From positions 62,001 through 126,000 of the forward strand of contig JAJFGG010000016.1 of the NCBI GenBank assembly GCA_021776235.1: a stretch of 64,000 nucleotides of DNA, in the 5' to 3' direction. The DNA is from Alphaproteobacteria bacterium. GTDB taxonomy: Bacteria; Pseudomonadota; Alphaproteobacteria; GCA-2731375. The notes below the pieces were generated by a model. That model saw only the letters and a list, made by a program, of their open reading frames with translations, searched no databases and was not told the origin of the DNA. A program made the translations under genes and the position numbers. This document shows, piece after piece, positions 13,381 to 45,192 of this stretch (the first letter of the stretch is position 1; each line of letters begins with the position of its first letter).

Positions 13381-13390
13381 GGCCTTGCCG

Positions 13391-23543: not shown

Positions 23544-24462
23544 AGCTTAAGCTCACAAACATCATAATAAGATCATCGCTGATACCGGGCATCGTATAGT
23601 CGAGGATCAGTTGGTTCTGGTACGGTCTCTTAAAGGCGTATGTGCATTAAAGCCAGAAAAAGATTAATGCTGGCTGAACATGCCGCGAATTGAGGCTAAT
23701 TCAGTAGATCACCCGCCATAGCGGGGCATTCGCGTCGCTGTTTCCGGCAGGGCATTCCACGTCTTCAGGCGGAATCGGTTGCCACCATTTTGCGCTCAGG
23801 AATTGTCTGAGTGGCGGTCCCGACCAGTTCGACAACCAGGTCTTTGTCTTCAGTCCCGGTCCAGGCAAAACTACTGCTGCGGGCCATTTGGTTTAGACGG
23901 CGGCCCGATGACTGCGGGTGTTTGACGCGAGCCCTTCAGGCCAATTTTATGATTAACAAATTCTTGAGAGTTATCCCGATACAATCTTGATCGTGGTTGG
24001 AGATTGGTTGGCAGCCTAAGCAAATAAGCTTCTGCCACGGTGCCTTTACAGGATTATTACCGGCTGCGGCAGACGAAATTCGGCAGAGTAATCGTGCGCC
24101 TCAATGCATCAATTTTGTTTTTCGGGTCACGTCGCGACAATTTGGGATTTAGTAAGAATCATGTTCAACGCAGCGGGCCTTATCGGACCTTGGAAACGTC
24201 GGACACGAAGGTTGGCGGGCACGGGCGCTTGGCAGCCTGGAATAATGTGCAAACGACCAACCTTTTGCGTCCCGGACAGGACGGCCGGCAAAGCCGAATG
24301 GAAGGATAAAAACCCACTGGCGGCAATTCATGGAATTGTCGGGCGCCGGGAAGATTATAAGATTGATCAGCACTTCAACCGCTTGGGCGCGACTTCCAAT
24401 ATTGATGGCTTCCTGTACCGCAAGCCCATCGAAGAGCTGGCGGGAGAATTGTTGCCCGCGTC
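23544..24462. other. 0.9-kb gap before the heptose operon; possible decayed gene
   Basis: No intact gene was recognised. A minus-strand frame ending near 23711 reads GLKTKTWLSNWSGPPLRQF and LSAKWWQPIPPEDVECP before a stop. It looks protein-like but has no convincing start and is interrupted upstream, so it may be a fossil. On plus, a frame reading IDQHFNRLGATSNIDGF ends in an ATGA overlap with the next gene, which could be the tail of a lost upstream gene. A CtrA-like sequence with one mismatch (TTAA-N7-TTGA at 23953) was noted. The operon promoter must lie here but was not identified. Confidence 0.45.
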
Positions 24463-26735: not shown

Positions 26736-27743
26736 GTGGATAGAGACGACGACGACATATTCATGACGCGCACGCCATTGCGGATAAGCTTCAATGGCGG
26801 CGGCACCGATTTGCCGAGTTTTTTCGAGCATGAAGATGGCCTGGTGGTTTCAACAACAATCAACAAGTACATCTATGTCACGGTGAAGCGTCTTAACCCG
26901 GTTTATCAGGAACAATACAGACTGAATTATTCGACCACCGAGAGTGTCGCTTCGATCGACGAGATCAGCAACGATATCGCCCGCGAGTGTTTACGGCTCG
27001 TCGCCGTGGACGGACCGCTCTACATAGGAACCTTTGCAGACCTGCCGGCGAATTCAGGTCTCGGTTCGTCATCCAGTTTTGCCGTTGGGTTGCTCAAGGC
27101 TCTACACCTGATGCGTGGCGAAAAGGTTTCGAACGGTCAGCTGGCGGAGGAAGCCGCGCATGTGGAAATCGATGTGCTGGGCCACCCGATTGGGAAACAG
27201 GACCAGTATGCCGCCGTCTTCGGCGGGCTGAACGGCATTGAGTTCCGCACGGACGGCAGCGTTTCGATCGAACCGTTGACGATGCGGTGCGAATTCCTGA
27301 ATAGGTTGTTTGATCAAACGCGCCTCTACTGGACCGGAATTACCAGGAGCTCATCTGAAGTCTTAAACGAACAAAACGCGAGATCTTCGGAAAATCGCGC
27401 CGCGCTGCAGTGCATGCGCGAACAGGCTGTGTTGCTTCGCAGCAAAATGCTCAAAGGCCTGGACCCGGCCGCCTTTGGCGCTCTGCTTGATGGCAACTGG
27501 CAGGTAAAACGAAAGCTGGCCAGCCGCATTTCGAACGGCGAAATCGACCGCCTGTACGATCTGGCCATTAAGGCAGGCGCATACGGCGGCAAACTATGCG
27601 GCGCCGGCGGCGGCGGTTTCCTGATGTTCCTGGTGCCACCGGACGGCGCTGATGCGGTTCGCCAGGCGCTTGGAAATCTGAGTGAAGTGACCGTCTCTTA
27701 TGAACCGCACGGCTCGATCCAAATGCTGCCTCGTTCGAATTAA
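26736..27743 (+). CDS. hddA: D-glycero-alpha-D-manno-heptose 7-phosphate kinase (GHMP family)
   Basis: Phosphorylates heptose 7-phosphate at C1 in the alpha series. The GHMP fold is shown by TRTPLRISFNGGGTDLPSFF (11-30), the phosphate-binding loop LPANSGLGSSSSFAVG (103-118), and KLCGAGGGGFLMFL at the C-terminus. The opening NGGGTDLP is characteristic of HddA-type kinases. The start GTG has GGCGAGA upstream. ATG at 26763 fits the family N-terminus but lacks a binding site. Located between the dehydratase and an RmlC-like gene, which fixes the heptose reading of the operon. Confidence 0.9.
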   Translation: MDRDDDDIFMTRTPLRISFNGGGTDLPSFFEHEDGLVVSTTINKYIYVTVKRLNPVYQEQYRLNYSTTESVASIDEISNDIARECLRLVAVDGPLYIGTFADLPANSGLGSSSSFAVGLLKALHLMRGEKVSNGQLAEEAAHVEIDVLGHPIGKQDQYAAVFGGLNGIEFRTDGSVSIEPLTMRCEFLNRLFDQTRLYWTGITRSSSEVLNEQNARSSENRAALQCMREQAVLLRSKMLKGLDPAAFGALLDGNWQVKRKLASRISNGEIDRLYDLAIKAGAYGGKLCGAGGGGFLMFLVPPDGADAVRQALGNLSEVTVSYEPHGSIQMLPRSN

Positions 27744-27759
27744 CCACGGAGTGAACGGG

Positions 27760-28317
27760 ATGCCACGGCAAAGCGCAATAGAAGGTGTTGTTGAAACAAG
27801 TAACGTGCATCTTGACGATGAACGGGGCTCCCTCGACAAGTTCTTCCACGCGCAGGTGCAGGATACCTGCTCTTCGGCGCTTACCTGGAAACAGGTTTTG
27901 CGCTCCACAACCAAGCAGGCCGGTGTTCTGCGCGGGCTGCAAGCCTTGAAGGCGCCCTATACCGAAGGCAAATTGATCGTTCCACTGAACGGCGAGATGT
28001 TTTGGGTAAGCGTCGACATGCGTGCCGGCAGCAACACGTTTGGCTGCTGGACATCGAAGCTGTTACGCCCCGACAACGGAAAAGGCCTGTTCGTGGCACG
28101 CGGGTTTTTCCATGGTTGTCTGTCGATGACCGACAATGTGGAACTGCTGATCATGGCCGACAACGATCATTCCGATGACCACAATGTCGGCATCAAATGG
28201 GACGACCCCGATCTTGCGATCGACTGGCCATTGCAGGACCGGCAGCCCATTTTGTCGCTAGCACACATGAAATATCCCAGCTTTGCGGACTTTCAACACA
28301 ATCATCATGGTTTGTAG
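27760..28317 (+). CDS. RmlC-family cupin, catalytic His replaced
   Basis: A 185-residue member of the dTDP-4-dehydrorhamnose 3,5-epimerase family by layout: ERGSLDKFF, GVLRGLQALKAPYTEGKLI, GEMFWVSVDMRAGSNTFG, FVARGFFHGCLSMTD and IKWDDPDLAIDWPL. In active epimerases the fourth stretch is RGLHYQ, and its histidine is the general base. Here it is Gln (RGLQAL). The usual YKCTDYY region is also changed to MADNDHS. It may therefore be non-catalytic, or act by a different mechanism on a heptose derivative. ATG chosen because GGAG precedes it. Confidence 0.83.
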   Translation: MPRQSAIEGVVETSNVHLDDERGSLDKFFHAQVQDTCSSALTWKQVLRSTTKQAGVLRGLQALKAPYTEGKLIVPLNGEMFWVSVDMRAGSNTFGCWTSKLLRPDNGKGLFVARGFFHGCLSMTDNVELLIMADNDHSDDHNVGIKWDDPDLAIDWPLQDRQPILSLAHMKYPSFADFQHNHHGL

Positions 28318-28352: not shown

Positions 28353-29102
28353 GTGAACCAGGAGCAAAGATATCTGTTCGATACCCATGGCTATATTGTC
28401 TTACGGGGTGTGCTTGACACGGCACTGGTCGCCACTCTGAACGGGCATATGGACCAACTGGAAGCATTGGCCGAGGACGAATTTCCCGAAGGCGTCACTT
28501 TGGGTAAACCACGCAGCGAAAATACCCTGTTCATCTCCAATATCGTCGAAGCCGATCCGGTCTTTTTCAATTTGATCGATCTGCCGCCGGTTATCGACAT
28601 CGTCCGCGAAACGTCGTCGGGCCTGTTCCGCCTGAACCATACCAATTCAATCACCCACGGCAGAGGCGCCTATACCTACGTTCATATGGGCGGTGCGCCG
28701 CTGCATCCGAAAGCGACCTATGCCGTGGTGGACGGAAAAATCTTTTCATTGCTGACCAAGGCAGTCTTTCCCTTGGCCAATCAGAAGACCGACGATGGCT
28801 GCTTTGCCGTCATCCCCGGTTCACACAAGTCAAATTTTGAACGCCCCAGTGACGATCACCCGGATGCCAATCCTTATCTGGTGCCGGTTGAAGCCGAGCC
28901 GGGTGACTGCATTGTGTTTACCGAAGCGCTGGCCCACGGCAGCCTGGTCAACCAATCGGGGCGGGCGCGCAGAACCCTGTTCTATTGTTACAGCGTTGGA
29001 TACATGCCGGATTGGGGCAATTTGGGTCTTTCGTTTAGCGAAGGATTTCTCGAACGGCTCTCGCCCGAACAGGCCGAGATCGTGCGCTTAAAGGCCAATT
29101 AG
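28353..29102 (+). CDS. Phytanoyl-CoA dioxygenase (PhyH) family protein
   Basis: A 249-residue 2-oxoglutarate/Fe(II)-type oxygenase-like protein. It begins FDTHGYIVLRGVLD, the usual PhyH entry. It has YVHMGGAPLHP in the place of the HxD iron-binding strand, GCFAVIPGSHKSNF (typical hydroxylase G-S-H-K segment) and a distal ALAHGSLVNQSGRARRTLFY with the second His and the 2-oxoglutarate Arg. The HxD motif is not clean, so metal binding is unproved. In this operon it could hydroxylate a sugar or a lipid carrier group. Start is GTG with GAGG eight bases upstream. Confidence 0.85.
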   Translation: MNQEQRYLFDTHGYIVLRGVLDTALVATLNGHMDQLEALAEDEFPEGVTLGKPRSENTLFISNIVEADPVFFNLIDLPPVIDIVRETSSGLFRLNHTNSITHGRGAYTYVHMGGAPLHPKATYAVVDGKIFSLLTKAVFPLANQKTDDGCFAVIPGSHKSNFERPSDDHPDANPYLVPVEAEPGDCIVFTEALAHGSLVNQSGRARRTLFYCYSVGYMPDWGNLGLSFSEGFLERLSPEQAEIVRLKAN

Positions 29103-29147: not shown

Positions 29148-29597
29148 ATGATTGACGGGGTAAAAGTCGTACCGCTGCGGAAAATTCCCGATGAACGCGG
29201 CGCCGTGTTCCATTTTCTGAAGAAAACCGATCCGCATTTCACGGAGTTTGGCGAAGTCTATTTTTCCTGCGGTTATCCGGGCGTTATCAAGGCCTGGCAC
29301 ATCCATAAGGAAATGACCCTGAACAACGTTTGTGTCGTCGGGATGATCAAACTGGTCATTTACGATTGCCGTGACAATTCGCCCACAAAAGGTGAACTCA
29401 TGGAAATCCATATTGGCGAGCAGAACTATGCTCTTGTGCAAATTCCGCCACTGGTGGCCAATGGTTACAAGGCATTCGGCGACAAGATGGCGATCATTTC
29501 GAACTGCGCCAGTATGGTCCATGATCCCGACGAGCTGATCTATATAGATCCGCTCAACAACGATATTCCCTATGACTGGGCGCAGAAACATGGCTGA
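29148..29597 (+). CDS. Short RmlC-like cupin (sugar 3,5-epimerase or isomerase)
   Basis: A 149-residue single cupin domain: VKVVPLRKIPDERGAVFHFL at the start, then CGYPGVIKAWHIHKEMTLNN and VQIPPLVANGYKAFG. Unlike its neighbour two genes upstream it keeps histidines (AWHIH) where RmlC-type enzymes have RGLHY. It is a likely epimerase for a 4-keto nucleotide sugar made by the dehydratase. The end overlaps the next methyltransferase gene by eight bases. Confidence 0.82.
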   Translation: MIDGVKVVPLRKIPDERGAVFHFLKKTDPHFTEFGEVYFSCGYPGVIKAWHIHKEMTLNNVCVVGMIKLVIYDCRDNSPTKGELMEIHIGEQNYALVQIPPLVANGYKAFGDKMAIISNCASMVHDPDELIYIDPLNNDIPYDWAQKHG

Positions 29598-30867
29598 CAG
29601 CACACAACCGATCGGACCCTGCATCGTTTGTGCGGGCAGCAACATTCAGGAATTTCTGGATCTTGGCGAGACGGCTTACGCGAATGCCTTTCCGACGGCG
29701 GAAGACATCCGCCAAGGGGGCGAAGAAAAGTTCCCGCTAACTGTCGGGTACTGCCCGGACTGCCATCACGTACAATTAACCCAACACGCCACACCATCGG
29801 ATTTGTTCTCCCATTACCTGTATATGTCGTCGGCCTCGGCGGTTTTGGTCGGGCATCTTAAGGGTCTGGCAAAGACGGTGGCCGCCCGCTACCACGAGCA
29901 GGCGCAAGGCCTGGTACTCGATGTCGGATGCAACGACGGCACGCTGCTGTCCGGCTTCATGGAAGCGGGGGTTGGTCGCGTACTGGGCATCGACCCTGCC
30001 GCAAACCTGGCACCTGTCGCCCAGGACAAGGGCGTTGAGGTCATCACTGACTTTTTCAATGCGGAAACGGCGCGAAAACTGAAAAACGACGGCCGCGAGG
30101 CACAAATCATAACGCTTACCAACAGCTTTCCACATATCCCCGACCTTTCCGGTCTTTGCCGCGGCTTCGATGAATTGCTCAGCGATGACGGCGTGATCGT
30201 ATTGGAGGCGCATTATCTTGGTGACCTTCTCGACATGCTGGCCTTCGACACGGTTTATCACGAGCATGTGTCGTACTGGTCCCTTGGTCCAGCCTGCCGT
30301 TTATTCGCAGCCCACGGCTTCGAGGTGGTCGATGTGGAGAGGCTGCCCATCCATCATGGCCAGTTAAGGCTTTGGGTGCGCCGCGCCGGTAAGGAAGCAG
30401 TCAGTGAACGTGTCGCCACTTTGCTAGAGGCGGAAAAGGCACGTGGATTTGGACGCCTTGAGACTTTTCAGGCGTTTGCCGGCGCCATCGACCAGATCAG
30501 GAGTTCTGTTACCGATTGGTTGGCGCAAGCCACGGCGGAGGGAAAAACGGTAGCCGGCTATGGCGCGCCGGCCAAGGGGAACACACTGCTCAGTTACCTG
30601 CGGGTCAGCCCTGAGGATCTGAAGTACATTGCCGATCTGAACCATCTGAAGCAGGGCCGTTTTACGCCTGGAACACATATCCCGGTGGTTTCCCCGGACC
30701 TGTTGCGGCAAGATCCACCGGACTATTTGCTAATTCTTGCCTGGAATTTTGTGGAGGAAATCGCCGCGCAACAGCAGGCCTTTGCCGATACGGGCGGTCG
30801 TTTTTTTGTGCCGGTTCCATCTCTGCGCGAGATTACCGGCGCTGCAACCGCAATACCGGCGGCATAA
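29590..30867 (+). CDS. Sugar C-methyltransferase with N-terminal zinc domain
   Basis: A 425-residue protein of the class that methylates a carbon of 4-keto nucleotide sugars (NovU/TylC3-type). The N-terminus has zinc cysteines Cys11-x2-Cys14 and Cys55-x2-Cys58 (GYCPDCHHVQL). The SAM-binding motif is VLDVGCNDGTLL (109-120). HHGQLRLWV and AGYGAPAKGNTLL in the C-terminal domain are also characteristic. It completes the operon and predicts a branched (C-methyl) deoxy sugar. A perfect palindrome immediately follows its stop. Confidence 0.9.
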   Translation: MADSTQPIGPCIVCAGSNIQEFLDLGETAYANAFPTAEDIRQGGEEKFPLTVGYCPDCHHVQLTQHATPSDLFSHYLYMSSASAVLVGHLKGLAKTVAARYHEQAQGLVLDVGCNDGTLLSGFMEAGVGRVLGIDPAANLAPVAQDKGVEVITDFFNAETARKLKNDGREAQIITLTNSFPHIPDLSGLCRGFDELLSDDGVIVLEAHYLGDLLDMLAFDTVYHEHVSYWSLGPACRLFAAHGFEVVDVERLPIHHGQLRLWVRRAGKEAVSERVATLLEAEKARGFGRLETFQAFAGAIDQIRSSVTDWLAQATAEGKTVAGYGAPAKGNTLLSYLRVSPEDLKYIADLNHLKQGRFTPGTHIPVVSPDLLRQDPPDYLLILAWNFVEEIAAQQQAFADTGGRFFVPVPSLREITGAATAIPAA

Positions 30868-30921: not shown

Positions 30922-32811
30922 CTAGCCTGCCGCTGCCGCCAGGGAACCGGGCAGTTCGCCGATCATCAAGCGTGGAATGTCTTTGTTCTTGAAATCTTGC
31001 GCATGCAGATCAGCGACGGTCAGATCGAACGCCTCCAGCCGTTCCTTCCAGTATGAAGAGCGAGATAGCTGACCTTCGAGACGTGTGATCGTCGCCGGCG
31101 CGATGGATCCCTCCAATTTATGCTCGAGATAGGCCAGAAAATAGAGTGCAAATCCGTGCTCGGGCGAAATGACATCGCAAAGATTGTTCAGATGGTGCCG
31201 CAGTTGCTGCAACTTCTGAATTCGATTTTCACCAAATAGACGATGAAAATTCAGGTGATAATTCATGAAGAACCAGATGTCGTCGATCTGTTCGCGTGTT
31301 GGAATGGCGTCCAACGGTATCGCTTCAAAGGCTTCCGCAAATCCAACGGTGGCCAGGCGTTGGCCGGTTTCGAGCTCATTTTGCTTGCCAAAGCCGCCCG
31401 ACATAAAGCGCACTTCAGAAGTTTCCGTTGCCTCGATCAGACCTTGGGCGATCATGGCGTCATAGATGGGCGTGTTCGGCAGCGGCTGTAGAGCCGTAAT
31501 GCCGCACCAATCCATGTCCATTTGTCTGGCAACGTTGATTGTATCCCCGATCATGGCCAGCGTTTCGTTGGGAAACCCCAACATCAAAAAGACCCGGGCA
31601 TGGATGCTCGGATAGCGCTTCAATGTTTCCGCCGCTCGCAGAAATACATCGACGGTTCCGGGCTTCTTGACCTGCCGTAGGATTTGAGGATTGCCGGATT
31701 CCATTCCGATATTCAGCGCGATGCAACCGCTCTCGGCCATGGCATGCACGGTTTGATCGTCGCAAGACGACGCAATGACGCCGTTCGTTGCATCCCAGGT
31801 CATCTTCAGGCCACGCTTGATCTTGCCGTTGAATAGCTGCAGGGCCCGATCCTGATCCTTCAGCAAATCGTCATCGAGCCAGACAATATGATTGATGCCC
31901 TGGACTTCCTCGAGATACTGCAATTCGTCCAAAACACTATCGACATCGCGGTGACGCACACCACGACCGTTGAAATTTCGAACACTGCAGAAGGTGCACT
32001 GCGCCCGGCAACCGCGATTGGACAGCACGGTTGCGAAACGGCTGCCCTCTGGTTTCAAAGCGTAAAAATTACCGATGGTGCCGTATTCGGACAGTCTGCC
32101 GATGTCGATCAGATCATAGGCGGGAAGAACACTGATGTCCTGCCGGTCCGGGGCCGCCGGTTGCGCGATCGAATGCCGTTCGTCACCATCGGACAGGATA
32201 ACCTGGGCCAGGGCACTTGCCGGCTTGGCGCCACGGACCACATCGCAAAACAATTCAATTGCAACATCGGCTTCCTTCAGAAAGGCAATATCAATGCCCT
32301 TAATGTCATCAAGGATGCGTTCGGGGTTGTTGGAGACGTGAACGCCTCCCACCGCAACCGGTACATCAAAAGCTGCTGCATAGTCACAAACACGGCTGAA
32401 CGACAGATGCGTCATTGTGAACATGCAGGTGACGCCAATGAGATCGGGCGCGAAGTCCTCAATTCCCGCCTTCAACTCCTGTCGCCATATGGCATCGAAA
32501 TCAAAACTGCCGTCGTCGTACTGGTCGCGGCACGACTCCAAAATACTGTTGTTGAGGTTGCAAATTCTGACCTCAATATTTCGGCGACGAAGGTGTTCGG
32601 CGATGAGCAATATGCCATAGGGCGGGTAGTTGGCGTAGCGGCCACGCAAGGCGGTTTCTGGTTGAAACAGCTCGCTATTGCCGTCGGGCGGATTAACCAG
32701 GAGAACGCGATCTAAAGCGCCTTCCGGGAACAACCGCCGCAAAGCGCTTTCGACTTTAATCAAATCTGGGCTGTCTTGACCGCGCGTCGCAACCCTAGCC
32801 GCATGTGCCAT
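30922..32811 (-). CDS. B12-binding-type radical SAM protein
   Basis: A 629-residue protein. Residues about 35-190 form an N-terminal Rossmann-like domain typical of B12-binding radical SAM enzymes (RVLLVNPPDG, then GVTCMFTMTH and PVAVGGVHVSNNPE), but no DxHxxG cobalamin motif was seen. The radical SAM domain follows with Cys268-x3-Cys272-x2-Cys275 (GCRAQCTFC), IVWLDDDLL, and IGMESGNPQILRQVKKPG. A 200-residue C-terminal extension is unrecognised. Members modify unactivated carbons (methylation, ring changes, P-methylation). The ATG has ACAGGAG upstream; it overlaps the SDR gene by 17 bases. It is last in the minus-strand sugar array. Confidence 0.9.
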   Translation of the reverse strand: MAHAARVATRGQDSPDLIKVESALRRLFPEGALDRVLLVNPPDGNSELFQPETALRGRYANYPPYGILLIAEHLRRRNIEVRICNLNNSILESCRDQYDDGSFDFDAIWRQELKAGIEDFAPDLIGVTCMFTMTHLSFSRVCDYAAAFDVPVAVGGVHVSNNPERILDDIKGIDIAFLKEADVAIELFCDVVRGAKPASALAQVILSDGDERHSIAQPAAPDRQDISVLPAYDLIDIGRLSEYGTIGNFYALKPEGSRFATVLSNRGCRAQCTFCSVRNFNGRGVRHRDVDSVLDELQYLEEVQGINHIVWLDDDLLKDQDRALQLFNGKIKRGLKMTWDATNGVIASSCDDQTVHAMAESGCIALNIGMESGNPQILRQVKKPGTVDVFLRAAETLKRYPSIHARVFLMLGFPNETLAMIGDTINVARQMDMDWCGITALQPLPNTPIYDAMIAQGLIEATETSEVRFMSGGFGKQNELETGQRLATVGFAEAFEAIPLDAIPTREQIDDIWFFMNYHLNFHRLFGENRIQKLQQLRHHLNNLCDVISPEHGFALYFLAYLEHKLEGSIAPATITRLEGQLSRSSYWKERLEAFDLTVADLHAQDFKNKDIPRLMIGELPGSLAAAAG

Positions 32812-33811
32812 GCTGCACTCCTGTCGTGATTTCGCCAGGCGCCGGGCTGATCTGGGCGTCCAAATTGGCGTGTAGGGTCAAGCAGCGCGAAAGTTCGTCA
32901 ATGATGACCTCAGATGATGGGCGTATGGGCTCGAAACCCGGCATCTCCATGGCCCGATTGCTGAGCTGTCGCGGCCAATCCGGATTATCTTCATCGATAT
33001 CGGCGGCATCGCTAACCGTGCAGCGCAAGCCGAGGCGCTTGCAGACCAACGCCAAGATACGCCTTTTGGAAATCGCTTCAGGACTGACAAGGTCGATCGC
33101 CCGATTGAAGGCCGGTGTATTCAGTGCGTAACCTACGCAGTCGGCAATTTCGGGCGGCCCGATATAGTCCCTTAGAAAATTCTGCCTGTTGATTTGCAGG
33201 GGCTTTCCCGAAATTAAGCTGTTCGCAATTTCAGAAAGAAAGTAGCCGCCTGCAATGGGGAGTTCCTTGCTGAGATAACCGAAGACCCGAACGTCGAGAA
33301 TTGAACGCGAGACCAGGGCGCGATGCTTGGCTTCGGCGACGATTTTCGCTAATGGGTAACAGGGGGTCTTCTCGGATTGATTAACAGGAATTGTCAATGC
33401 GTCACTGTTTTCAGCGGGACGATTATAGGCGTTGCCGTAAATCGCACCGGTACTAAGGAAGAGCAATTTACAGCGCGGCTGCTGGTTGAGATAAGCCAAT
33501 GTCATGTTGTCAACGGCTTCCGAGGCATAAAGGATTTCAGCCCCCAACCCGCGAATGACCTTGGGATCGCCCGGCAACGCGGCGTTCACGACGAGATCAT
33601 AGGCGTCGCGACCAAAGTCACTGGTATGGCTGATTTCAGCCGCTCGTTCGCCCTTTTCAGCAACGCCCAAGAGTGTTCGCAGGCGCCCGGGCCGTTCGGT
33701 GAAGAGATCCAGCCGGCAATCGGCATCCAGTGCCTCGGCCAAGCCGCGGCCAATTTGACCCCCGGCCCCGAGAATCGCAATTCTGGCGCCTGAAATGCCC
33801 CGATCTGTCAT
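32795..33811 (-). CDS. NAD-dependent epimerase/dehydratase-like SDR
   Basis: About 338 residues. The N-terminus has IAILGAGGQIGRGLAEAL (GxxGxxG). FLSTGAIYGNAYNRP supplies the Ser region, and YPLAK gives the YxxxK pair. YIGPPEIADCVGYAL is typical of SDR proteins acting on nucleotide sugars. The ATG at 33811 is chosen because GAGG lies eight bases upstream and the fold starts there. It lies between two radical-SAM genes. Substrate unknown; 4-keto reductase or epimerase in the array's pathway. Confidence 0.84.
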   Translation of the reverse strand: MTDRGISGARIAILGAGGQIGRGLAEALDADCRLDLFTERPGRLRTLLGVAEKGERAAEISHTSDFGRDAYDLVVNAALPGDPKVIRGLGAEILYASEAVDNMTLAYLNQQPRCKLLFLSTGAIYGNAYNRPAENSDALTIPVNQSEKTPCYPLAKIVAEAKHRALVSRSILDVRVFGYLSKELPIAGGYFLSEIANSLISGKPLQINRQNFLRDYIGPPEIADCVGYALNTPAFNRAIDLVSPEAISKRRILALVCKRLGLRCTVSDAADIDEDNPDWPRQLSNRAMEMPGFEPIRPSSEVIIDELSRCLTLHANLDAQISPAPGEITTGVQHGTCG

Positions 33812-33933
33812 CTCTGCCTCAAAAATTCCCGGAAAACGACCCTTGCAGCCGGTATCATAGGCATCAAACATGCTCAAATTATTAACTCTTTCGGATCATT
33901 TCCCGGGCATTTTGCGGGCCCGCCGGGACAGCC

Positions 33934-34899
33934 CTATCCTTGAACGCGGCCAGCCTCCGTTGCCAAGACGGTACAGTGGCCACACAGTTTGTGTTGGCTC
34001 TTTTTCCCGGCCGAATGGAGTTCGCGCAATTTGTTTAGCGGTTTGGCATTGAAGAGGTCGATGGGGTCCGTATCAAAAGCATTTCCGAAGCCATATTTAC
34101 CTTCGAGCAGATCTTCAAAACACAAAGCGACCTTGCCGTTGGCCAAGATCACAAGCTTTTCGAATAGATGGTGACACGGCTGTGCGGCCAACGGATCGTT
34201 GTTTTCAATGCGGGTGGCGTCGCCGCCCGTTTGCCCTGACCAGTCGTGCATGTGGTAACGAAGCACAAGATCGTTTCTTTTCTCGTTGATCCTGGTTTTC
34301 CAGAAGGCGCGGTATGCTTCCCATTCCTGGGCATTGTGTTTCTGTTGGATGAAGCGGATGACAAACCGGGTTTTATGGTTGCCGGCATCGCGTTCGCGAA
34401 TTGCCGCCTCAACGTTGCTGACAACGCGGTCGAAATTTGTTCGTGGGCGTGCGGTTTCGTGCACGGCCCTAGTTGCGCCGTCGATACTGACGAGGATTGT
34501 GTCAACGCCACCGGCAAGAAGTTGCCTGCGCCATTCAAGATCCAGCAAATGCGCGTTGGTCGATACGGCCACGCCTGTGAAGCCTCGATTTTTGAGCAAC
34601 GCAACCCGTTCTGGCAAGAATCGATCGAGCAGGGGTTCCCCCAATCCGAACAAATCAAACATCGTAATCTGATCTCGATAAGGTACCAGGCGGTCTATGA
34701 GGGCTTCGAATTTCTCCATCGACATCACGCCTTTGTCCCGTTCCGTCGGATGTTCGATCAGGCACATCGGGCAACGGGCATTGCAGCCGAAGACTGTTTC
34801 GATCACGACCCGGGACGGGATCAGGCGTTCGCCATGCCGATCGGTCATGTCCATGGCGCCTTGCCGCTTGTCGCCGATAGCTGTGGATGATGCCGCCAT
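33934..34899 (-). CDS. Radical SAM/SPASM-type protein
   Basis: About 321 residues with the radical SAM cluster motif Cys39-x3-Cys43-x2-Cys46 (FGCNARCPMC). FDLFGLGEPLLDRF follows (GGE-like segment as GLGEP), then VSTNAHLL and ILVSIDGATRAVHE. C-terminal cysteines (CHHLFEKLVILANGKVALCFED and LCGHC) resemble a shortened SPASM cluster site. ATG at 34899 is chosen (AAAGG upstream), since upstream codons run into the neighbouring gene. It follows the E1-beta gene by 32 bases. Family members modify sugars, peptides or cofactors. Confidence 0.88.
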   Translation of the reverse strand: MAASSTAIGDKRQGAMDMTDRHGERLIPSRVVIETVFGCNARCPMCLIEHPTERDKGVMSMEKFEALIDRLVPYRDQITMFDLFGLGEPLLDRFLPERVALLKNRGFTGVAVSTNAHLLDLEWRRQLLAGGVDTILVSIDGATRAVHETARPRTNFDRVVSNVEAAIRERDAGNHKTRFVIRFIQQKHNAQEWEAYRAFWKTRINEKRNDLVLRYHMHDWSGQTGGDATRIENNDPLAAQPCHHLFEKLVILANGKVALCFEDLLEGKYGFGNAFDTDPIDLFNAKPLNKLRELHSAGKKSQHKLCGHCTVLATEAGRVQG

Positions 34900-34931: not shown

Positions 34932-35873
34932 CTAAGGCGCGTCGAGGAAGGCGCGGATTTCGTTCATGTCGGGCTGGAACCGGTCTGGATTGGGACACAG
35001 GGTCCAATCATCATAGGACATGACCTTAACCCGTGTGGCCCCCAGCATTTCGGATACTGCGCTCACCAAGCCGAAATACGGTTTATTGCGACTCTTCGCG
35101 TCATCAAGAATAAGCAACCGTCCCGCCGTCATGGCTTCTTCGCGAACATTATCGCCGACGGTAATATGCGCGGCGTTTACGCCCATCAGGCCGCATGAAT
35201 AACCCTCAGCCGTCAACTGTCCTTGGATCTCGGCCGCCTGGGGAAACGCCATATTGTAGGCGCAGACCGTGAGGTCCCGGCCGGATTCATAAACGATGCT
35301 GTCGGCGTGCTCGGTTATATGCTTTGGCGCCAGTGTCGAACCCGGAACCGGTTCGCGGAACAAACGTTCGCTGCAGGTGATAATGCGGAATCCCGGCGCG
35401 GCGAAGTGCCTGGCCAACACGGCGGGTATGTCGTGACGATTTGTGACGGTATACCCTTCGATATCCGCAATCGAGCACAGGTCATAAAGCCCGTTGAATG
35501 AACTTTGCGGCCCCGAATATCCGCCATCAACGGTAATTGCCAGGATCGTGAACGAGGCTCCCAGGTTTTCCCCGCGCAGGATATTCCAGGTATTGACCAG
35601 TTGATCGACACCAAGCAGCAAGAAATCCAACTGCTTCATGCAATAGGCGCTGCTGATACCCTTTAGCATCAGGCCGAAGCCAACACCGGCCAGTGTGTTT
35701 TCGCTGTTTTGGGTATTGATGGCACGGTGGTCGTCATCCAGGTTCAGGTTGCGGGTCAGCCCGCCGAGGCATGAACCCGCGTCCACATTCTGGCCGTAAA
35801 GAACAAATCGGTCCTGTGCTGCGATGGTTTTGCGCAGGCAGGCGTTCACGAATGACACGTAGCTTTCGCTCAT
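34932..35873 (-). CDS. TPP-dependent E1-beta / transketolase-like subunit
   Basis: A 313-residue homologue of the beta subunit of 2-oxoacid dehydrogenase E1 or of the transketolase pyrimidine-binding half. The TPP-activating glutamate is Glu58 in QNSENTLAGVGFGLMLKG. ITVDGGYSGPQSSFN then corresponds to the E1-beta phosphate-loop region. The C-terminal Rossmann domain (VCAYNMAFPQAAEIQGQL, RLLILDDAKSRNK) is complete. The start overlaps the alpha-subunit stop (ATGACATGAG arrangement), so the two form one translationally coupled enzyme. No E2 or E3 lies nearby. It may perform carboligation or transketolation on a sugar precursor instead of oxidative decarboxylation. Confidence 0.86.
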   Translation of the reverse strand: MSESYVSFVNACLRKTIAAQDRFVLYGQNVDAGSCLGGLTRNLNLDDDHRAINTQNSENTLAGVGFGLMLKGISSAYCMKQLDFLLLGVDQLVNTWNILRGENLGASFTILAITVDGGYSGPQSSFNGLYDLCSIADIEGYTVTNRHDIPAVLARHFAAPGFRIITCSERLFREPVPGSTLAPKHITEHADSIVYESGRDLTVCAYNMAFPQAAEIQGQLTAEGYSCGLMGVNAAHITVGDNVREEAMTAGRLLILDDAKSRNKPYFGLVSAVSEMLGATRVKVMSYDDWTLCPNPDRFQPDMNEIRAFLDAP

Positions 35874-36805
35874 GTCATTTCCTCGCGCAATGCGGTCTGT
35901 ATTCTTATCGCTTCTGCGGCAAGGGTCGCAGGCTCGACCCAGTTTTTCAGCTGTTCGACGGGGTCCTTGTCCAAAGGGTCGAGCGCCGGCCAATCCGGTA
36001 TCTCGAGATGCCGCGCCGGGCCCTGATGATAGTTGACTGTTCTGCCATCAGGCGCCCGTTCATCGTGGACGGTGAACCAGCCCAGGGTATCCAAGGACAC
36101 CTCCAAAAGCACCGGTGTGGCCCCGGCGGAAGCCGCCAGGCGCGCGTCTTTGACGGCATCGAGGCAGGCAAAAACATCCGCACCGTCTGTACGGCGATAG
36201 GGGACAGCAAAACTGTTGCAGAATGCTTCGAGATCGATGGCGCAGCGGCGTTCGGAAACATGCGTTGCCAATGACCATTCGTTGACTTCGGCAACGATCA
36301 CGCAGGGTGCCGCCCGGCTTTTCATAAACTGCAGCGACTCGTAGAACGCACCCTCTTCAAGGGCGCCATCGCCTGTGGTGACAAAGCAAACACTGCCGTC
36401 GCCCAGGACCGCGGCACCCAACGCAACGCCGGCGGCGACCGGTAGGTTGTTCGCCAGGATTGACGAGCTGTAAGGCAACCCCTTTGCGGGATTTGACAGA
36501 TTCATTGAACCCAGGCGGCCGCCGTCCAGGCCTTCATTGCGCAAATGATAGGCCTGATACTCGCTCGCGAAATTGTCGGCGCGGGTGAGGTTGTAGTGAA
36601 TATTTCGATGGGTCAGGAGCAGGCTGTCACCCGACGCCATCGCCAGATCGACGGCCACCGCAATGGCCTCGTGCCCCAGCGCAAGATGAAGCGGGATCTT
36701 GAGCCCGTTGGTGTCCATGGTCTCGTTGATAAGGAGTTGCGCCAGGCGGAGCCGCAATACCTCCCGCGCGATATCTAGGCGGCTGTGGGCATTTGCACGG
36801 CACAT
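35870..36805 (-). CDS. TPP-dependent E1-alpha / transketolase-like subunit
   Basis: A 311-residue thiamine-diphosphate-binding subunit. LHLALGHEAIAVAVDLAM and LTHRNIHYNL resemble E1-alpha. The TPP-Mg motif is GDGALEEGAFYESL (about 145-158), with the Asn ligand in VAEVNEWSLAT near residue 175 replacing the usual VENNGYAIST. The ATG at 36805 begins right after the upstream SDR stop (TGAA-ATG). A longer version starting at 36838 would overlap that gene. It partners with the next gene. Together they resemble acetoin/pyruvate-dehydrogenase E1 but sit among sugar genes. Confidence 0.86.
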   Translation of the reverse strand: MCRANAHSRLDIAREVLRLRLAQLLINETMDTNGLKIPLHLALGHEAIAVAVDLAMASGDSLLLTHRNIHYNLTRADNFASEYQAYHLRNEGLDGGRLGSMNLSNPAKGLPYSSSILANNLPVAAGVALGAAVLGDGSVCFVTTGDGALEEGAFYESLQFMKSRAAPCVIVAEVNEWSLATHVSERRCAIDLEAFCNSFAVPYRRTDGADVFACLDAVKDARLAASAGATPVLLEVSLDTLGWFTVHDERAPDGRTVNYHQGPARHLEIPDWPALDPLDKDPVEQLKNWVEPATLAAEAIRIQTALREEMT

Positions 36806-36806
36806 T

Positions 36807-37721
36807 TCAATTTGCCCCATAGCCAAAATAATCGGCAAGACGGATCAAGCCTTCCCGGTATTGCACCGTGGCTTTCCAGCCCAGGTCAATTTCTGCCTTT
36901 CGGGACGACAGGGACCTGATACTGGGCGCCGCCGGGTTTTTTTCCGTCGTCGCAATCGAACTGCCAAGTATTTCCTGTGCCGCCGAAACAATATCGCCCA
37001 GGCTGGTCAATTCGGGTCCCTGTATATTGAGAACCCCTTCGACGGGAGATTTGCAGGCCGCAATGATGGCATCAGCGACATCGCTGACATGCAGATACCG
37101 CCGCGCCGTAGCGAGCGAACCGACGCTGATATCCTCTGGTCTGGCAACGCTGGCGAGCAGGCTTTCCACCGCTCCCCAGTTCGTCATGCGCTCGCCATAG
37201 ATGATCCCAAAGCGCAGAATTGCCAAGCTCAATTGATTGTTTCGGCTATACTGGGACAAGCCATATTCCGCCATCAATTTGGACAGAGCATACTCTGAGG
37301 TAAGCGCGAGCGGATCGATGCGGGTATCTTCCGTGACGGGCGTCTCGCCAGCCGCATCCGGATAGACCCATTCGCTGGAGGCAAAGACAAAGCGTCTGAC
37401 ACCCGCCTTTGCCGCTGCCTGCGCCATGTTCATGGTGCCGGCGACATTGATTCTGAAGCATTCGGCTGGTTTGCCGGTGCAATCGGAATCGCGGGAAAGG
37501 GCCGCGAGATGGACCAGCGCATCAGTGTTCAGATCAATATGATCGGCCACTCCCGGGTCATTGATATCGCAGCGGATCGTTGTGTCAGCATCATCCACCC
37601 TGAGGTCGATGCCCGATACCTTGATGCCTTGATCCCGGCATCGTTTGCGCAGGACCTGGCCGACAAAACTCTCGATGCCGGTAATGAAAATGCGCCCGAA
37701 TGTCTGTTGTTTCTGCATCAT
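36807..37721 (-). CDS. NAD-dependent epimerase/dehydratase-like SDR
   Basis: About 304 residues. The nucleotide-binding loop reads FITGIESFVGQVL, with Ser where most SDRs have the second Gly (GxxGxxG). RFVFASSEWVYP gives the Ser region, SEYALSK the YxxxK, and ARRYLHVSDVADAI the cap. It resembles UDP-glucose 4-epimerase-like proteins of glycan clusters. The ATG overlaps the stop of the upstream GT2 gene (ATGA) and its own stop is one base before the E1-alpha start, so the array is tightly coupled. Confidence 0.84.
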   Translation of the reverse strand: MMQKQQTFGRIFITGIESFVGQVLRKRCRDQGIKVSGIDLRVDDADTTIRCDINDPGVADHIDLNTDALVHLAALSRDSDCTGKPAECFRINVAGTMNMAQAAAKAGVRRFVFASSEWVYPDAAGETPVTEDTRIDPLALTSEYALSKLMAEYGLSQYSRNNQLSLAILRFGIIYGERMTNWGAVESLLASVARPEDISVGSLATARRYLHVSDVADAIIAACKSPVEGVLNIQGPELTSLGDIVSAAQEILGSSIATTEKNPAAPSIRSLSSRKAEIDLGWKATVQYREGLIRLADYFGYGAN

Positions 37722-38917
37722 GCCACGATCTTGCAAAGGTTCGACAGTTCATCTATCTGGCCAGACCGCCGAATTGGGCCTTCCGAAATCTCTTGGCGCG
37801 AGTGGAAAAGTTCCGGATCGACATATAGGAAATATTCGCGCTCCTCGCACGGCAACTGCGATAGCACCCGGCTGGTTGCAACAATCACCTCGGCCTCGGG
37901 TGAAGCTGTCAGGTAGGCTTCGACTATGGACTGGGTCTTTTCATGCTCCTCGACAACGAGCAAATCGGTTGCCCCGGACGTTCGCATGCAGAGAATGATT
38001 GTCTGGGCAACTATATGCGCCCTTAGACCCTCGTCGACCAAATTTGCGAGATGGTTCGCCGCTTCCAAGCCATAGGCGCACGCGCGAATTGTTAGGCTCC
38101 GTCCCCGTAAATACATCCCCCTGTCGAATGCGGTTAGAGCGCCTACGACATACTGCTGCGCCAGTTTCTGCGCGATAAACATCTGGCGCTGCTTCGGCGA
38201 CAGATTGGGAATGCTCACGGCGGCCAGTTGATAGTCAGCTAAGTAGGAAGACAAATGTTCGTCTTCAAACATACTCCTGGAGCCCTGCCCTGCATGTTGC
38301 AGCACGCCATGAATCGGGTCTTCGATGAAAACAACGTCGCCCATTTTCATGAGATTCGTCATACCGAAGAAATCAAATGAAAGCTGATACTGAAACGGCA
38401 TCAATGCCTTCTGGTAGGCTCGCCGCCGCATTATGGGCATCTCAACCGAATTGATGCTGTCTATAACTTCATGCAGGTTGCTCAAGCTGCGCCGACCGTG
38501 TTTGGATTCGTCCTGTCGGATGGACTCGATAGACCCATCACCCTCGCGAACTTTGAGCCACGTACCAAAGACCACCGCGACATCAGCGTGGTTGTCCAAT
38601 TCATCAATGGCCCTCAACAAGCCCTCTTCTATCAAATAGTCGTCGTCAGCCAGATATACGAGGTAGTCCCCGCGGGCCAGATTGAAGGCCGGCAACTGAG
38701 TTTGAAATCTGTTTAATGCATTTTCTTGACGGAAATAATATACGCTGGGCAGGCGGCCGCGGAATTGCTCGACGACAGCCTCGGTATCGTCGCTGGAGGC
38801 ATTGTCGGAGATAACAACTTCGAAATCCCTGAATTGAAATTCGTCAAGATGGCTCAAACAGGTGGCCAATCTCTCCGCTCTATTGCGGGTCGGTATGCAT
38901 ATACTCAGCTTTGGCAT
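37718..38917 (-). CDS. GT2 family glycosyltransferase, copy B
   Basis: A 399-residue protein with an N-terminal GT-A domain: LSICIPTRNRAERLATCLSH, VVISDNASSDDTEAVVEQ and GDYLVYLADDDYLIEEGLL (DDD metal site, about residues 92-94). The C-terminal 200 residues are unrecognised apart from being shared with the neighbour copy. The paralogue upstream has exactly the same length and the same ends (SEGPIRRSGQIDELSNLCKIVA compared with SEGPIRRSAQVDELLNLCKILA). Clearly a tandem duplication that has diverged. Probably transfers a sugar to a surface glycan or protein. Confidence 0.9.
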   Translation of the reverse strand: MPKLSICIPTRNRAERLATCLSHLDEFQFRDFEVVISDNASSDDTEAVVEQFRGRLPSVYYFRQENALNRFQTQLPAFNLARGDYLVYLADDDYLIEEGLLRAIDELDNHADVAVVFGTWLKVREGDGSIESIRQDESKHGRRSLSNLHEVIDSINSVEMPIMRRRAYQKALMPFQYQLSFDFFGMTNLMKMGDVVFIEDPIHGVLQHAGQGSRSMFEDEHLSSYLADYQLAAVSIPNLSPKQRQMFIAQKLAQQYVVGALTAFDRGMYLRGRSLTIRACAYGLEAANHLANLVDEGLRAHIVAQTIILCMRTSGATDLLVVEEHEKTQSIVEAYLTASPEAEVIVATSRVLSQLPCEEREYFLYVDPELFHSRQEISEGPIRRSGQIDELSNLCKIVA

Positions 38918-39041: not shown

Positions 39042-40241
39042 TTACGCCAGAATTTTGCATAAGTTCAACAATTCATCGACCTGGGCCGAACGACGAATTG
39101 GCCCTTCTGAAATGTTCTCACGGGACCGCAAAAGTTCCGGGTCGACATAAAGAAAATACTCACGCCCGCCGTACGGCATCTGCGACAGCTCATCGCCGGT
39201 CGCAATGGTCAGATTGGCCTCGGGCAGGGACGACCGGTAAAAATTGGCGATAGGCCGGGTCCTTTCGTGGTCCTCAACAACCAACAAATCCGTTGACCCG
39301 GATGTTCTCATGCTGACAATAATTGTCTGGACAACAATTTGAGTCCGCAGTTCCTTGTCCATGAACATTGCAAATCCATCGGCCTCGCCCACCCCGTAGG
39401 CAAGCGCGCGGACAATAAGGTTCCGACCAAGCAGGAACATGCCCTGGCGGCACGCGGTTTGTGCGGCAGCAACATACTGATGAACTATTCTTTGCGCGAT
39501 GAACAACTGGCGCTGCCTCGGCGACAGATTAGGCAAGGTGATGGCGGTCAATTCATAGTCAGCGAGGTAAGATGAAAGGTGTTCGTCTTCAAACAGTTGA
39601 TTGGAACCTTGCCCGTCATGCTGCACCACCCCATAAATGGGATCTTCGATAAATACAACGTCGCCCATTTTCATCAAATTGGTCATGCCGAAGAAGTCGA
39701 ATGAAAGCTGATACTGAAACGGCATCACCGCCTTACGGTAAGCTTCCCTTCGCATAATGGGCATTTCGACGGCATCGATATTGTGAATAATTTCATGCAA
39801 ATTGTCCAAACTGCGGCGTCCGTGAGCCGACTCATTCTGTTTGACCGCTTGAATCGAGCCGTCTTCATCGCGAACTTCAAGCCAGGCGCCGATGACAACC
39901 GAAACATCGGGGTTGCTCTCCAGCAAATCGAGCGCCTTTAACAGGCCCTCTTCTATCAAAAAGTCGTCATCGGCCAAATATGCAAGGTATTCCCCGCTCG
40001 CGAGATTGAATGCCGGCAGTTGGCTTTGAAATCTGTTTAATGCAGTCTCTTGACGGAAATAATAGACGTTTGGGAGTTGTCCGCGAAACCGCTCCACCAC
40101 TGCTGCAGTATCATCGCTGGAAGCATTATCAGAAATAACAACTTCAAAATCTTTGAATTGAAAGTCACTGAGCCTACTCAAACATGTCGCCAACCGTTCT
40201 GCCCTGTCACGGGTAGGTATGCAAATACTCAGTTTCGGCAT
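39042..40241 (-). CDS. GT2 family glycosyltransferase, copy A
   Basis: A 399-residue paralogue of the adjacent downstream gene, with LSICIPTRDRAERLATCLSR, VVISDNASSDDTAAVVER and LAYLADDDFLIEEGLL (DDD). Middle segments such as LSFDFFGMTNLMKMGDVVFI are identical in both, so they arose by gene duplication. Copies differ most in the C-terminal third, which suggests different acceptors. The gap of 124 bases between the copies contains no gene. Start ATG (MPKLSIC). Confidence 0.9.
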   Translation of the reverse strand: MPKLSICIPTRDRAERLATCLSRLSDFQFKDFEVVISDNASSDDTAAVVERFRGQLPNVYYFRQETALNRFQSQLPAFNLASGEYLAYLADDDFLIEEGLLKALDLLESNPDVSVVIGAWLEVRDEDGSIQAVKQNESAHGRRSLDNLHEIIHNIDAVEMPIMRREAYRKAVMPFQYQLSFDFFGMTNLMKMGDVVFIEDPIYGVVQHDGQGSNQLFEDEHLSSYLADYELTAITLPNLSPRQRQLFIAQRIVHQYVAAAQTACRQGMFLLGRNLIVRALAYGVGEADGFAMFMDKELRTQIVVQTIIVSMRTSGSTDLLVVEDHERTRPIANFYRSSLPEANLTIATGDELSQMPYGGREYFLYVDPELLRSRENISEGPIRRSAQVDELLNLCKILA

Positions 40242-40380: not shown

Positions 40381-41304
40381 TTACTTCAAATGCGAATTCC
40401 ACCATTCAACTGAGCCACGAAGTCCTTCAACAAAATTGTCCCCAGCAACGAAGCCAATATTTTTTCGCAGTAACGTATCGTCACCAACTAAACGGTGGGG
40501 CACTCCTTTGCCGCCAAGCCGGTGGTCATGCCTTATTAGGGCGGGGTCTGCGTCGCAAAGCAAAAATACGGACGCCGCGATCTCGCCCAGGGTCAATCCT
40601 TCGCCACTACAAATATTGACCGTTGTTTCTGTAGTGCCTGCCAATAATTTGCAGAGAGCGCCTGCAACGTCGCGGGATCCCATGTAGTCGCGTAACAATT
40701 CGCCGGGGCCCATGGAGAATTGCCGATTTTCCAGAGCGGCCATGATCGCTTGCGGGATGAACCTATTCGGTTTTTCGCCCGCGCCATGACAGAAAAAAAT
40801 ACGCCCCGTCGCCGCGGAAACAGGGGCGGCTGTTTCAAGATAATGGGACACTATTCTCTTACCCTGGCCCAGCGCGGAGGCCGGAGAAACAGGTGCATCC
40901 TGCTCTCTAAAATTCCTGGAACCAGTCTTGCTGTCTTGCCAATTGTACTCGGCGCAACTGCCGGCAAAGACAAGCCGCCGGCCCCCGTTTTGCGCAAAGG
41001 CATCAATCAGTGAAATGCTTGCGTCTGCCCAGATTCGGTTTTCCTCAAAACTATCGCGGAACTCATGCCCCGTCGCCCAGGCTAGATGGATCAGGCTGTC
41101 GGCTTTGACATCTTTCACAATTCCTGCCATCGCGGCACGATCAAGGATGTCAGCCTGCAGCCACTTCACACAAGGCCCTCTGATATCGGGCCTCTGGTTG
41201 CCCGTGCCCGCTAATGCGATGACATCCTGTTTTGCCGCACGCAACTGTCTGACAACCTGCCGACCAATCAGGCCCGCTGCACCCGTTACCAAGACGGCCG
41301 TCAC
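40381..41304 (-). CDS. NAD-dependent SDR-like protein lacking the catalytic tyrosine
   Basis: A 307-residue extended-SDR homologue with VLVTGAAGLIGRQVVRQL, SLIHLAWATGHEF, RLVFAGSCAEYNWQD and LLRDYMGSRDVAGAL. The catalytic YxxxK is not found: the aligned stretch is SALGQGKRIV, in which Leu replaces Tyr and Lys is kept. It may bind a nucleotide sugar without oxidising it, or use a substitute residue. The start is GTG. It is the first gene of the minus array and divergent from a radical-SAM gene. Confidence 0.82.
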   Translation of the reverse strand: MTAVLVTGAAGLIGRQVVRQLRAAKQDVIALAGTGNQRPDIRGPCVKWLQADILDRAAMAGIVKDVKADSLIHLAWATGHEFRDSFEENRIWADASISLIDAFAQNGGRRLVFAGSCAEYNWQDSKTGSRNFREQDAPVSPASALGQGKRIVSHYLETAAPVSAATGRIFFCHGAGEKPNRFIPQAIMAALENRQFSMGPGELLRDYMGSRDVAGALCKLLAGTTETTVNICSGEGLTLGEIAASVFLLCDADPALIRHDHRLGGKGVPHRLVGDDTLLRKNIGFVAGDNFVEGLRGSVEWWNSHLK

Positions 41305-41740: not shown

Positions 41741-42985
41741 ATGAATGACTTGACTATGAGCCCGCGGCTAGAAGAGGTTGCTGTAAGTTGGGTCGATGAG
41801 GCAACCGGCCGGGATTTTTCCCGCCTGGTTCATGTGAGCAGGCTGGCACAGCTTTCCGTAGAGCTTTCCACGTCGTGTAACTTGGCCTGCGTCTATTGTC
41901 ATTTCGCTCCGCTGGACCGCCGCGGCAATGATATGCCGGTGGATACCATTGAGCATGTCATTGAATTCTGTACATCTTTTCCAATAGATGTTGTTACCCT
42001 CTCGGGTGACGCTGAAATTACCATGTACAAAGGCTGGGAGACGGTCGCAAAACGTCTGCTGGATGCCAGTGTCAACCTGCGCACTATTTGTAATTTTACC
42101 AACGGCATCTTTTCCGAAGAGCAGGTTGACGCGTTTTCGCAATTCAGCGAAATACTTGTCAGCCTCGATACTGCAGACGCACAGTTGTTAAAGAAAACCC
42201 GCTATCGGGCGGACCTGCGCACTATCACACTTAATGTGATGGCGATCCGTGCAAAATGCATCCTGGATGGCCGGCCGCAACCACGTTTCATTTGTAACAC
42301 CGTGGTCAGTGACAAAAACTTTACCGTTCTGGATAAACTGACCGCGTTCGCCATCGCGGCGGGGTTCAATATAATTTCCTTGCAGCGTCTTGTCGGGCTC
42401 GAGGAAGTCGAGGGTGGAAAGAACGATTTCTTCGATAACCCCAATGCAATTCCGGTTTTTCCACTCCATACAATGGCTGACGACGCAGCCCGCGAGGGTC
42501 TTGCCGCGCTGGAGCGGGCAATGCAATTGGCCGTGGGCCGTATTGAATTAGCTATGCACCCGGCGATATCCGGAGAATTTGAGCGACTGATCGACTATCT
42601 CAATGGAAAAATTGAGACAGCCGCGCCACCCTCTGAAACGGATGGCGCCTCGAACGAAAGCCTGGCCTGCGAGACTGATGCACAAGCTATTGTCGGGGGA
42701 AAACGCACCAAGGCATGCCTGATGCCGTGGAACTATATGCATGTCATGTGGAACGGCGAAATACCGCCATGTTGCATCGTCAAGGACAAGTTCATTGGAA
42801 AGACAGACGATGCCCCGCTTGCGGAAATCTTTAATTCGGATCAGATGAAAAGTTACCGCATGGGGCTGTTGACCGGAAATCTACCGGACGTATGCGAGAC
42901 TTGCACATACATGCCCGATGCCAGCACGGACTATTTGGTAGCCTCGGTTGAGAGCTATTTGGGACAGATCACACCATCGAGCTGA
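41741..42985 (+). CDS. Radical SAM/SPASM domain protein
   Basis: A 414-residue protein with a clear cluster motif Cys46-x3-Cys50-x2-Cys53 (TSCNLACVYC), VVTLSGDAEITMYKG (a GGE-like segment written SGDAE) and EILVSLDTADAQLL. The C-terminal region has KACLMPWNYMHVMWNGEIPPCC and VCETCTY, matching a SPASM auxiliary cluster site. Its orientation is opposite to the flanking genes, so it is a single-gene transcript. Members of this type occur in glycan clusters and in peptide modification. It is not closely similar to the other two radical-SAM proteins here. Target unknown. Confidence 0.88.
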   Translation: MNDLTMSPRLEEVAVSWVDEATGRDFSRLVHVSRLAQLSVELSTSCNLACVYCHFAPLDRRGNDMPVDTIEHVIEFCTSFPIDVVTLSGDAEITMYKGWETVAKRLLDASVNLRTICNFTNGIFSEEQVDAFSQFSEILVSLDTADAQLLKKTRYRADLRTITLNVMAIRAKCILDGRPQPRFICNTVVSDKNFTVLDKLTAFAIAAGFNIISLQRLVGLEEVEGGKNDFFDNPNAIPVFPLHTMADDAAREGLAALERAMQLAVGRIELAMHPAISGEFERLIDYLNGKIETAAPPSETDGASNESLACETDAQAIVGGKRTKACLMPWNYMHVMWNGEIPPCCIVKDKFIGKTDDAPLAEIFNSDQMKSYRMGLLTGNLPDVCETCTYMPDASTDYLVASVESYLGQITPSS

Positions 42986-45168: not shown

Positions 45169-45192
45169 GACATCATTTCCTAAAAAGCGCCG

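Follow-up and report, generated by a model that had tools for sequence, protein, structure and literature searches.

A phylum-crossing clade of E1-type thiamine diphosphate enzymes as candidate carboligases of heptose-type surface sugars

In a stretch of 64,000 nucleotides from an alphaproteobacterial genome (hereafter the window), we found a two-subunit E1-type enzyme encoded within a sugar gene cluster. Our comparisons favor, with reasonable though far from complete confidence, the reading that the pair is an E2-independent thiamine diphosphate (ThDP) carboligase that would attach a two-carbon unit to the keto carbon of a sugar derived from GDP-heptose and so produce a C-branched sugar. The wider proposal, for and against which we see the balance as even, is that an undescribed clade of E1-type carboligases crossing several phyla, with a beta subunit invisible to Pfam and Gln-Ser in place of a His, builds C-branched and possibly doubly branched (3-C-methyl) GDP-heptoses for flagellin or other surface glycans, including in small-genome bacteria that lack E2.

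A complete two-subunit E1 fold with its cofactor residues is present. The original prediction had described such an E1-alpha/E1-beta pair at 34932-36805 with the GDG motif and Glu58, and the sequence, Pfam (for alpha) and the structure models agree on it. On the minus strand, the extended SDR gene is followed by E1-alpha, E1-beta, and a radical SAM/SPASM gene (table 1). E1-alpha starts 1 nt past the stop of the SDR gene, and an ATGA overlap joins the two E1 reading frames, in keeping with the translational coupling that had been proposed. E1-alpha matched Pfam E1_dh (8.4e-30, 104 bits) and, in a sequence comparison with solved structures, human PDH E1-alpha (about 2e-17). It scored 116.9 bits with the NCBIfam PDH E1-alpha equivalog, below the cut-off of 393.85, and only 25.8 bits with the transketolase model (cut-off 488); transketolase is not its closest family. 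E1-beta had no Pfam match at 1e-3, and neither did three further E1-betas of the clade (four tested, including that of the window). The E1-beta of T. thermophilus aligned with it over residues 7-273 (phmmer, 3.8e-7). Structure prediction, proposed earlier as a check, was run on each subunit and gave E1 folds: the alpha model matched human PDH E1-alpha (Z 31.6, rmsd 2.5, 278 residues) and the beta model (pLDDT 84) matched human PDH E1-beta (Z 27.5, rmsd 3.1, 300 residues). PDH/BCKDH E1 was the best structural alignment for both.

Table 1. Genes of the sugar cluster and adjoining flagellar genes in the window
Feature	Position	Strand	Remarks
CmcI/rhamnosyl O-methyltransferase remnant	24275-24424	+	C-terminal part of about 50 residues, 47% identity to L043; immediately precedes the guanylyltransferase
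HddC-like sugar-1-P guanylyltransferase fused to GmhB-like heptose-1,7-bisphosphate 7-phosphatase-like HAD	24463-25719	+	
GDP-sugar 4,6-dehydratase/4-reductase family SDR	25737-26723	+	
HddA-like heptose 7-phosphate 1-kinase (GHMP)	26736-27743	+	
RfbC-type 3,5-epimerase	27700-28317	+	
PhyH-type non-haem iron dioxygenase	28353-29102	+	also adjoins E1-beta in L031, L060
RfbC/FdtA-like cupin	29148-29597	+	73-77% identical in L031, L050, L060
Sugar 3-C-methyltransferase, TylC3/TcaB9 type	29572-30867	+	enzyme type acting on keto-sugars
B12-binding radical SAM protein	30922-32811	-	
Divergent SDR	32795-33877	-	
Radical SAM/SPASM protein	33934-34854	-	directly downstream of E1-beta
E1-beta-like subunit	34932-35873	-	313 aa; divergent clade; activator Glu58; invariant K80-Q81, Q123-S124
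E1-alpha-like subunit	35870-36805	-	311 aa; ThDP/Mg GDG motif 145-147; His260
Extended SDR	36807-37736	-	partner gene of the E1 pair
GT2 glycosyltransferase	37718-38917	-	70% identical to neighbor
GT2 glycosyltransferase paralogue	39042-40241	-	
SDR, epimerase/dehydratase type	40381-41304	-	
Radical SAM/SPASM protein	41741-42985	+	kept in L031, L060
flgL-like flagellin-domain protein and flgK	44215-47286	-	cluster in flagellar region

The sugar gene cluster occupies about 24.4-44.2 kb of the window and is embedded in flagellar genes, with FlgD, FlgE, and FliF at 50-55 kb. SDR and GT2 genes surround the pair as had been described, but the radical SAM genes number three, not two. The plus-strand genes of the cluster were assigned by family similarity. 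The HddA-like kinase is closest by sequence to solved heptose kinases, and the heptose kinase, 7-phosphatase, and HddC models match window genes, all below the curated NCBIfam equivalog cut-offs. Among solved structures, the nearest to the SDR at 25737 are GDP-6-deoxy-4-hexulose reductase (2pk3, the best PDB match) and GDP-heptose 4,6-dehydratase (7us5); judged by the best match, this putative dehydratase could instead be a 4-reductase. The partner SDR of the pair is a candidate reductase of the new branch, or an epimerase.

Several other features of the region were recorded. The two GT2 genes are adjacent and represent a tandem duplication. The B12-binding radical SAM protein had HpnJ and P-methyltransferases as its best NCBIfam matches, all far under cut-off. 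A TPR protein with a GT41 (O-GlcNAc-transferase-like) domain at 19622-22285, a homologue of which lies at the edge of the L031 cluster, is a candidate flagellin protein O-glycosyltransferase. MnmA-like genes, recognized by eye and 59% identical, flank the window region (18351-19517) and the cluster of genome G755 (L060:13962-14999), reflecting either chance or a shared neighborhood. Finally, two neighboring genes at 11773-14971 encode paralogous membrane proteins of 535 and 526 aa that look MFS-like by eye, with a strong AT skew (0.29) at 12-14 kb.

None of the 14 other genomes of this order yielded the E1 pair, which is therefore accessory. Ten further pairs were found in different phyla, giving 11 loci in total, some of them ended by contig ends. 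Genome G173 carries a 45%-identical pair in a cluster that lies beside a flgL homologue and has at least nine gene families in common with the window; a flagellar setting was recorded for the window and for L031. Seven more pairs came from a scan of genome contigs (a Chloroflexi MAG, Sulfuritalea, a Liptonbacteria MAG, and unclassified MAGs), and genome searches added pairs in G448 and G755. Homologue counts were restricted to the clade at ≥37% identity, because the wide matches (L011-L028, 22-28% identity) were mixed and E2-linked dehydrogenases appeared at weak E-values (L051, L052, L054). The original prediction had named ordinary 2-oxoacid dehydrogenase operons as the setting of homologues that would speak against it; the clade pairs were instead surrounded by sugar or surface-glycan genes.

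The two subunits stay together in every clade locus, and some of their neighbors recur. An HddA kinase was present in 9 of the 11 loci, the partner SDR adjoined the pair or lay a few genes off in 9, an RfbC-type epimerase occurred in 8, and a sugar 3-C-methyltransferase in 7. Fuller copies of the CmcI-type methyltransferase, left as a remnant in the window, were found in seven related clusters, and GmhA-type isomerases in two loci (L039 and L040). At L042, the SDR and the pair are all that is left of the set, with no HddA within 20 kb. Radical SAM genes were considered as core functional partners and set aside, being only partly recurrent: a 50%-identical homologue of the one at 33934 is also directly 3' of E1-beta in G448 (L050), that at 41741 recurs in L031 and L060, and the B12-binding one recurs only by weak similarity. 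A search of plasmids gave E1-beta matches of just 21-31% identity and no E1-alpha match at 1e-18. A Streptomyces match (L029) was discarded, the surrounding cluster not being sugar-pathway-like by eye, and the literature on Coxiella LPS (virenose), searched for a described homologue, contained no mention of E1 that we could find.

The claim that no E2 or E3 lies nearby held up. An E2/E3 pair just outside the window was looked for, and the pair's own 160-kb contig contains no E2; the only E2 genes of the host genome are two, on other contigs (C70 and C101). Scans with an E2 and an E3 model detected neither in ten clade neighborhoods, and the eleventh likewise gave no E2; these models, built from E2 and E3 proteins, do detect E2-linked E1 loci. 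Moreover, genome-wide scans for PF00198 (E2) gave no match in 6 of the 11 hosts, including G448 (3.8 Mb, 96% complete) and the Liptonbacteria MAG of 0.6 Mb, while it was matched in 10 of 14 control genomes. MAG incompleteness weakens single cases of E2 absence, not the whole set. Six hosts have no E2, and therefore the pair must work without E2 there.

The cofactor motifs are as originally stated, but the beta active site, which had drawn no remark, is not ordinary. Across the clade, beta Glu58 and alpha GDG 145-147, Arg67, His40, and His260 are invariant, the last retained in an N-Y-H-x-G loop behind a 16-residue insertion. The HSQS/HSHS segment, found in all 12 other E1-betas, was absent from all ten aligned clade betas, which have an invariant Gln123-Ser124 in place of the conserved His segment. 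The register of this segment is uncertain (pLDDT <50 for beta 117-123), with no conserved His there in any register; either Gln123 or Ser124 would take the place of the His. Lys80-Gln81 is likewise invariant in clade betas and was not seen in other E1-betas. In the E1 of G. stearothermophilus, the proton for lipoate acetylation has been proposed to come from His128-beta; a variant with Gln at this position kept its decarboxylation but was impaired in acetylating lipoate, and no E1, in the authors' argument, will do without the beta His (PMC2663715). Loss of the His alongside kept cofactor machinery fits an enzyme that would still decarboxylate without feeding lipoate. It could also alter the decarboxylation step or the donor.

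These results bear on two conservative explanations. An ordinary 2-oxoacid dehydrogenase E1 feeding an E2 encoded elsewhere would account for the E1 fold and cofactor motifs, and the host does carry two E2 genes on other contigs. However, E2 is missing genome-wide in six hosts, on which ground we rejected an orphan PDH E1 with a remote E2; the beta His for lipoate acylation, His128/146, is lost in every aligned member, and the score with the PDH E1-alpha equivalog is far below cut-off, so that we hold this explanation to be extremely improbable. The altered beta active site could also suggest a catalytically dead or regulatory pseudoenzyme. We regard this as very unlikely, given that the cofactor Glu, GDG, alpha His40 and His260, and Arg67 are invariant in all members across phyla and that both subunits are kept together at every locus.

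Two further explanations keep the enzyme active and change its product. The pair might be a chain-extending ketolase: a two-carbon unit (acyl or glycolaldehyde-type) would be transferred onto an aldehyde, that of a sugar or a sugar phosphate, and HddA/HddC would activate the octose or still longer sugar that results. ThDP enzymes of the superfold do move two-carbon units to aldehydes (transketolase; the split transketolase 6yaj, Z 23.7), split transketolases have been proposed for the sugars of miharamycin and amipurimycin (PMC12247030), and the HddA/HddC homologues diverge from the heptose equivalogs and could act on another sugar. Against this, E1-alpha belongs with E1_dh and is far from transketolase, both subunit models align best to PDH/BCKDH E1, and the GmhA-type isomerases of L039 and L040 fit a heptose start; chain extension thus seems rather unlikely to us. 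Somewhat less credible still is the possibility that the pair supplies a small molecule (an acyloin, an aldehyde, or an acyl intermediate) for other enzymes to link to the sugar through an ester, amide, or ether bond, with no sugar C-C bond made by the pair itself. E1 enzymes also form acyloins, and the PhyH and radical SAM enzymes of the cluster could do further side-chain chemistry, but no acyltransferase or ligase was seen recurring with the pair, whereas keto-sugar chemistry and one SDR do recur.

Under the preferred reading, carboligation to a C-branched sugar, the gene families suggest that a kinase, a phosphatase, and a guanylyltransferase would convert heptose-7-P to GDP-heptose, from which a dehydratase would give a 4-keto intermediate, followed by epimerization and/or 3-C-methylation. 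The E1 pair would then remove CO2 from a 2-oxoacid, probably pyruvate, leaving an acyl carbanion on ThDP, whose two-carbon unit would be placed on the keto carbon C4, or C3, of the GDP-activated heptose-derived sugar; precedent and gene context suggest this step and its position, with branching the more probable outcome than chain extension. The partner SDR may reduce the branch, and the GT2 enzymes would transfer the branched sugar to flagellin or another surface glycan. Flagellin is suggested as the target by the position of the cluster among flagellar genes in the window and in G173; other phyla may use the sugar elsewhere. Several points count against carboligation: the 3-C-methyltransferase would by itself account for a keto-sugar being required, in the trees the clade stands apart from the His-containing E1 pairs of other sugar clusters, the dehydratase may be a 4-reductase, the heptose assignments fall short of equivalog level, loss of the beta His could affect decarboxylation or the donor, and L042 lacks a nearby HddA.

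These His-containing pairs make up a second set, whose sugar clusters likewise lack E2; it comprises pairs on the Solidesulfovibrio magneticus plasmid pDMC1 and in G109, G120, G334, and G271. Maximum likelihood trees were built from the ten clade members then available, host PDH-type E1s, E2-linked E1s, and the second set. In both subunit trees, support was 100/100 for a single clade of the ten members, to the exclusion of the PDH-type E1s of the host, the E2-linked E1s, and the other sugar-cluster pairs. Either E1 pairs reached sugar clusters on more than one occasion, therefore, or their divergence has been very great; unrooted trees confined to these four groups are compatible with both. 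The second group resembles the clade in having its pairs surrounded by sugar genes and no E2; two of these pairs also neighbor HddA and a nucleotidyltransferase. Unlike the clade, it keeps HSQS, the two members tested match Pfam transketolase domains, and its HddA-containing clusters carry a DegT aminotransferase. The two clusters, L030:7870-14854 (S. magneticus pDMC1) and L035:5328-11357 (G109), combine a His-containing pair with an HddA kinase, a nucleotidyltransferase, the DegT aminotransferase, and SDRs, and likely represent another carboligase-type sugar pathway.

Placing a carbon branch on a sugar ketone gives a hindered tertiary alcohol. If the proposal is true, E1-type carboligases extend to flagellar and surface glycans across several phyla, a new kind of branched heptose is predicted, and the clade offers new targets for structure and biocatalysis. 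The clade would also offer natural variants for finding out which E1 residues act solely in lipoate acylation, the beta His being lost and the cofactor machinery kept.

That a stand-alone E1-type enzyme could serve as a sugar carboligase, the central idea of the original prediction, is largely supported by our comparisons. Such carboligases are already known (PMC12247030, PMC4425429, PMC10338323), so that the idea is well founded, though its principle is not a novel one. They transfer an acetyl unit from pyruvate onto C3 or C4 keto groups of sugars, and in vitro KbDH-alpha/beta accepts ketones, sugar analogues among them, as coupling partners for pyruvate (PMC12247030). Inactivation of pau11 abolishes paulomycins (PMC4425429), the branch ketone of which is reduced by a ketoreductase (PMC4753412), and EvdU5/EvdS3 of everninomicin is a proposed case (PMC10338323). 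According to a 2025 review, surface sugars are branched by YerE-like single-chain enzymes and antibiotic sugars by E1-type ones, and an E1-type enzyme that accepts ketones has yet to have its structure solved (PMC12247030). Among the open-licence papers searched, we found nothing on E1-type carboligases in flagellin glycosylation, and no report of E1-type carboligation of a bacterium's own heptose-type surface sugars.

PDH/BCKDH E1 and the clade have the fold, the ThDP motif, the activator Glu, and the alpha-loop His in common, but the clade differs in lacking E2/E3 and the beta His segment, in the insertion before the alpha His, and in the invariant beta Lys-Gln 80-81. Like the reaction proposed for our pair, that of YerE-like carboligases (yersiniose, erwiniose) uses ThDP to extend an NDP-4-keto-sugar destined for a cell-surface glycan by carboligation; YerE, however, is a single-chain flavoprotein of the decarboxylase superfamily using CDP-sugars, whereas the clade has a two-subunit E1 in a GDP-sugar-type cluster. 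In Campylobacter, a 4,6-dehydratase turns GDP-heptose into GDP-4-keto-heptoses, and the enzyme set described there includes no ThDP enzyme or C-methyltransferase; its heptose kinase, phosphatase, guanylyltransferase, and C3/C5 epimerase have putative counterparts in our cluster, and a GDP-keto-heptose would be common to both (PMC10680097). The closest likeness in kind is with the alphaKADH2 carboligases (AviB/Pau/KbDH), whose working principle as sugar carboligases is known and would apply here. In both, the ThDP enzyme is of E1 type with two subunits, and its deoxysugar gene cluster also encodes keto-sugar enzymes and a candidate ketoreductase. The pair has the corresponding E1 fold with ThDP/Mg motif and activator Glu, no E2/E3 partner, and NDP-keto-sugar genes around it. 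Those enzymes belong to antibiotic clusters, and the review describes their branching only in secondary metabolites (PMC12247030). In contrast, the clade occurs in GDP-heptose-type flagellar or surface clusters of Gram-negatives, the Chloroflexi MAG, and the small-genome Liptonbacteria MAG, and its betas lack the conserved His and, in the four tested, a Pfam match. What is new here is a separate clade, the missing beta His, a Pfam-invisible beta subunit, and a heptose-type surface-glycan setting.
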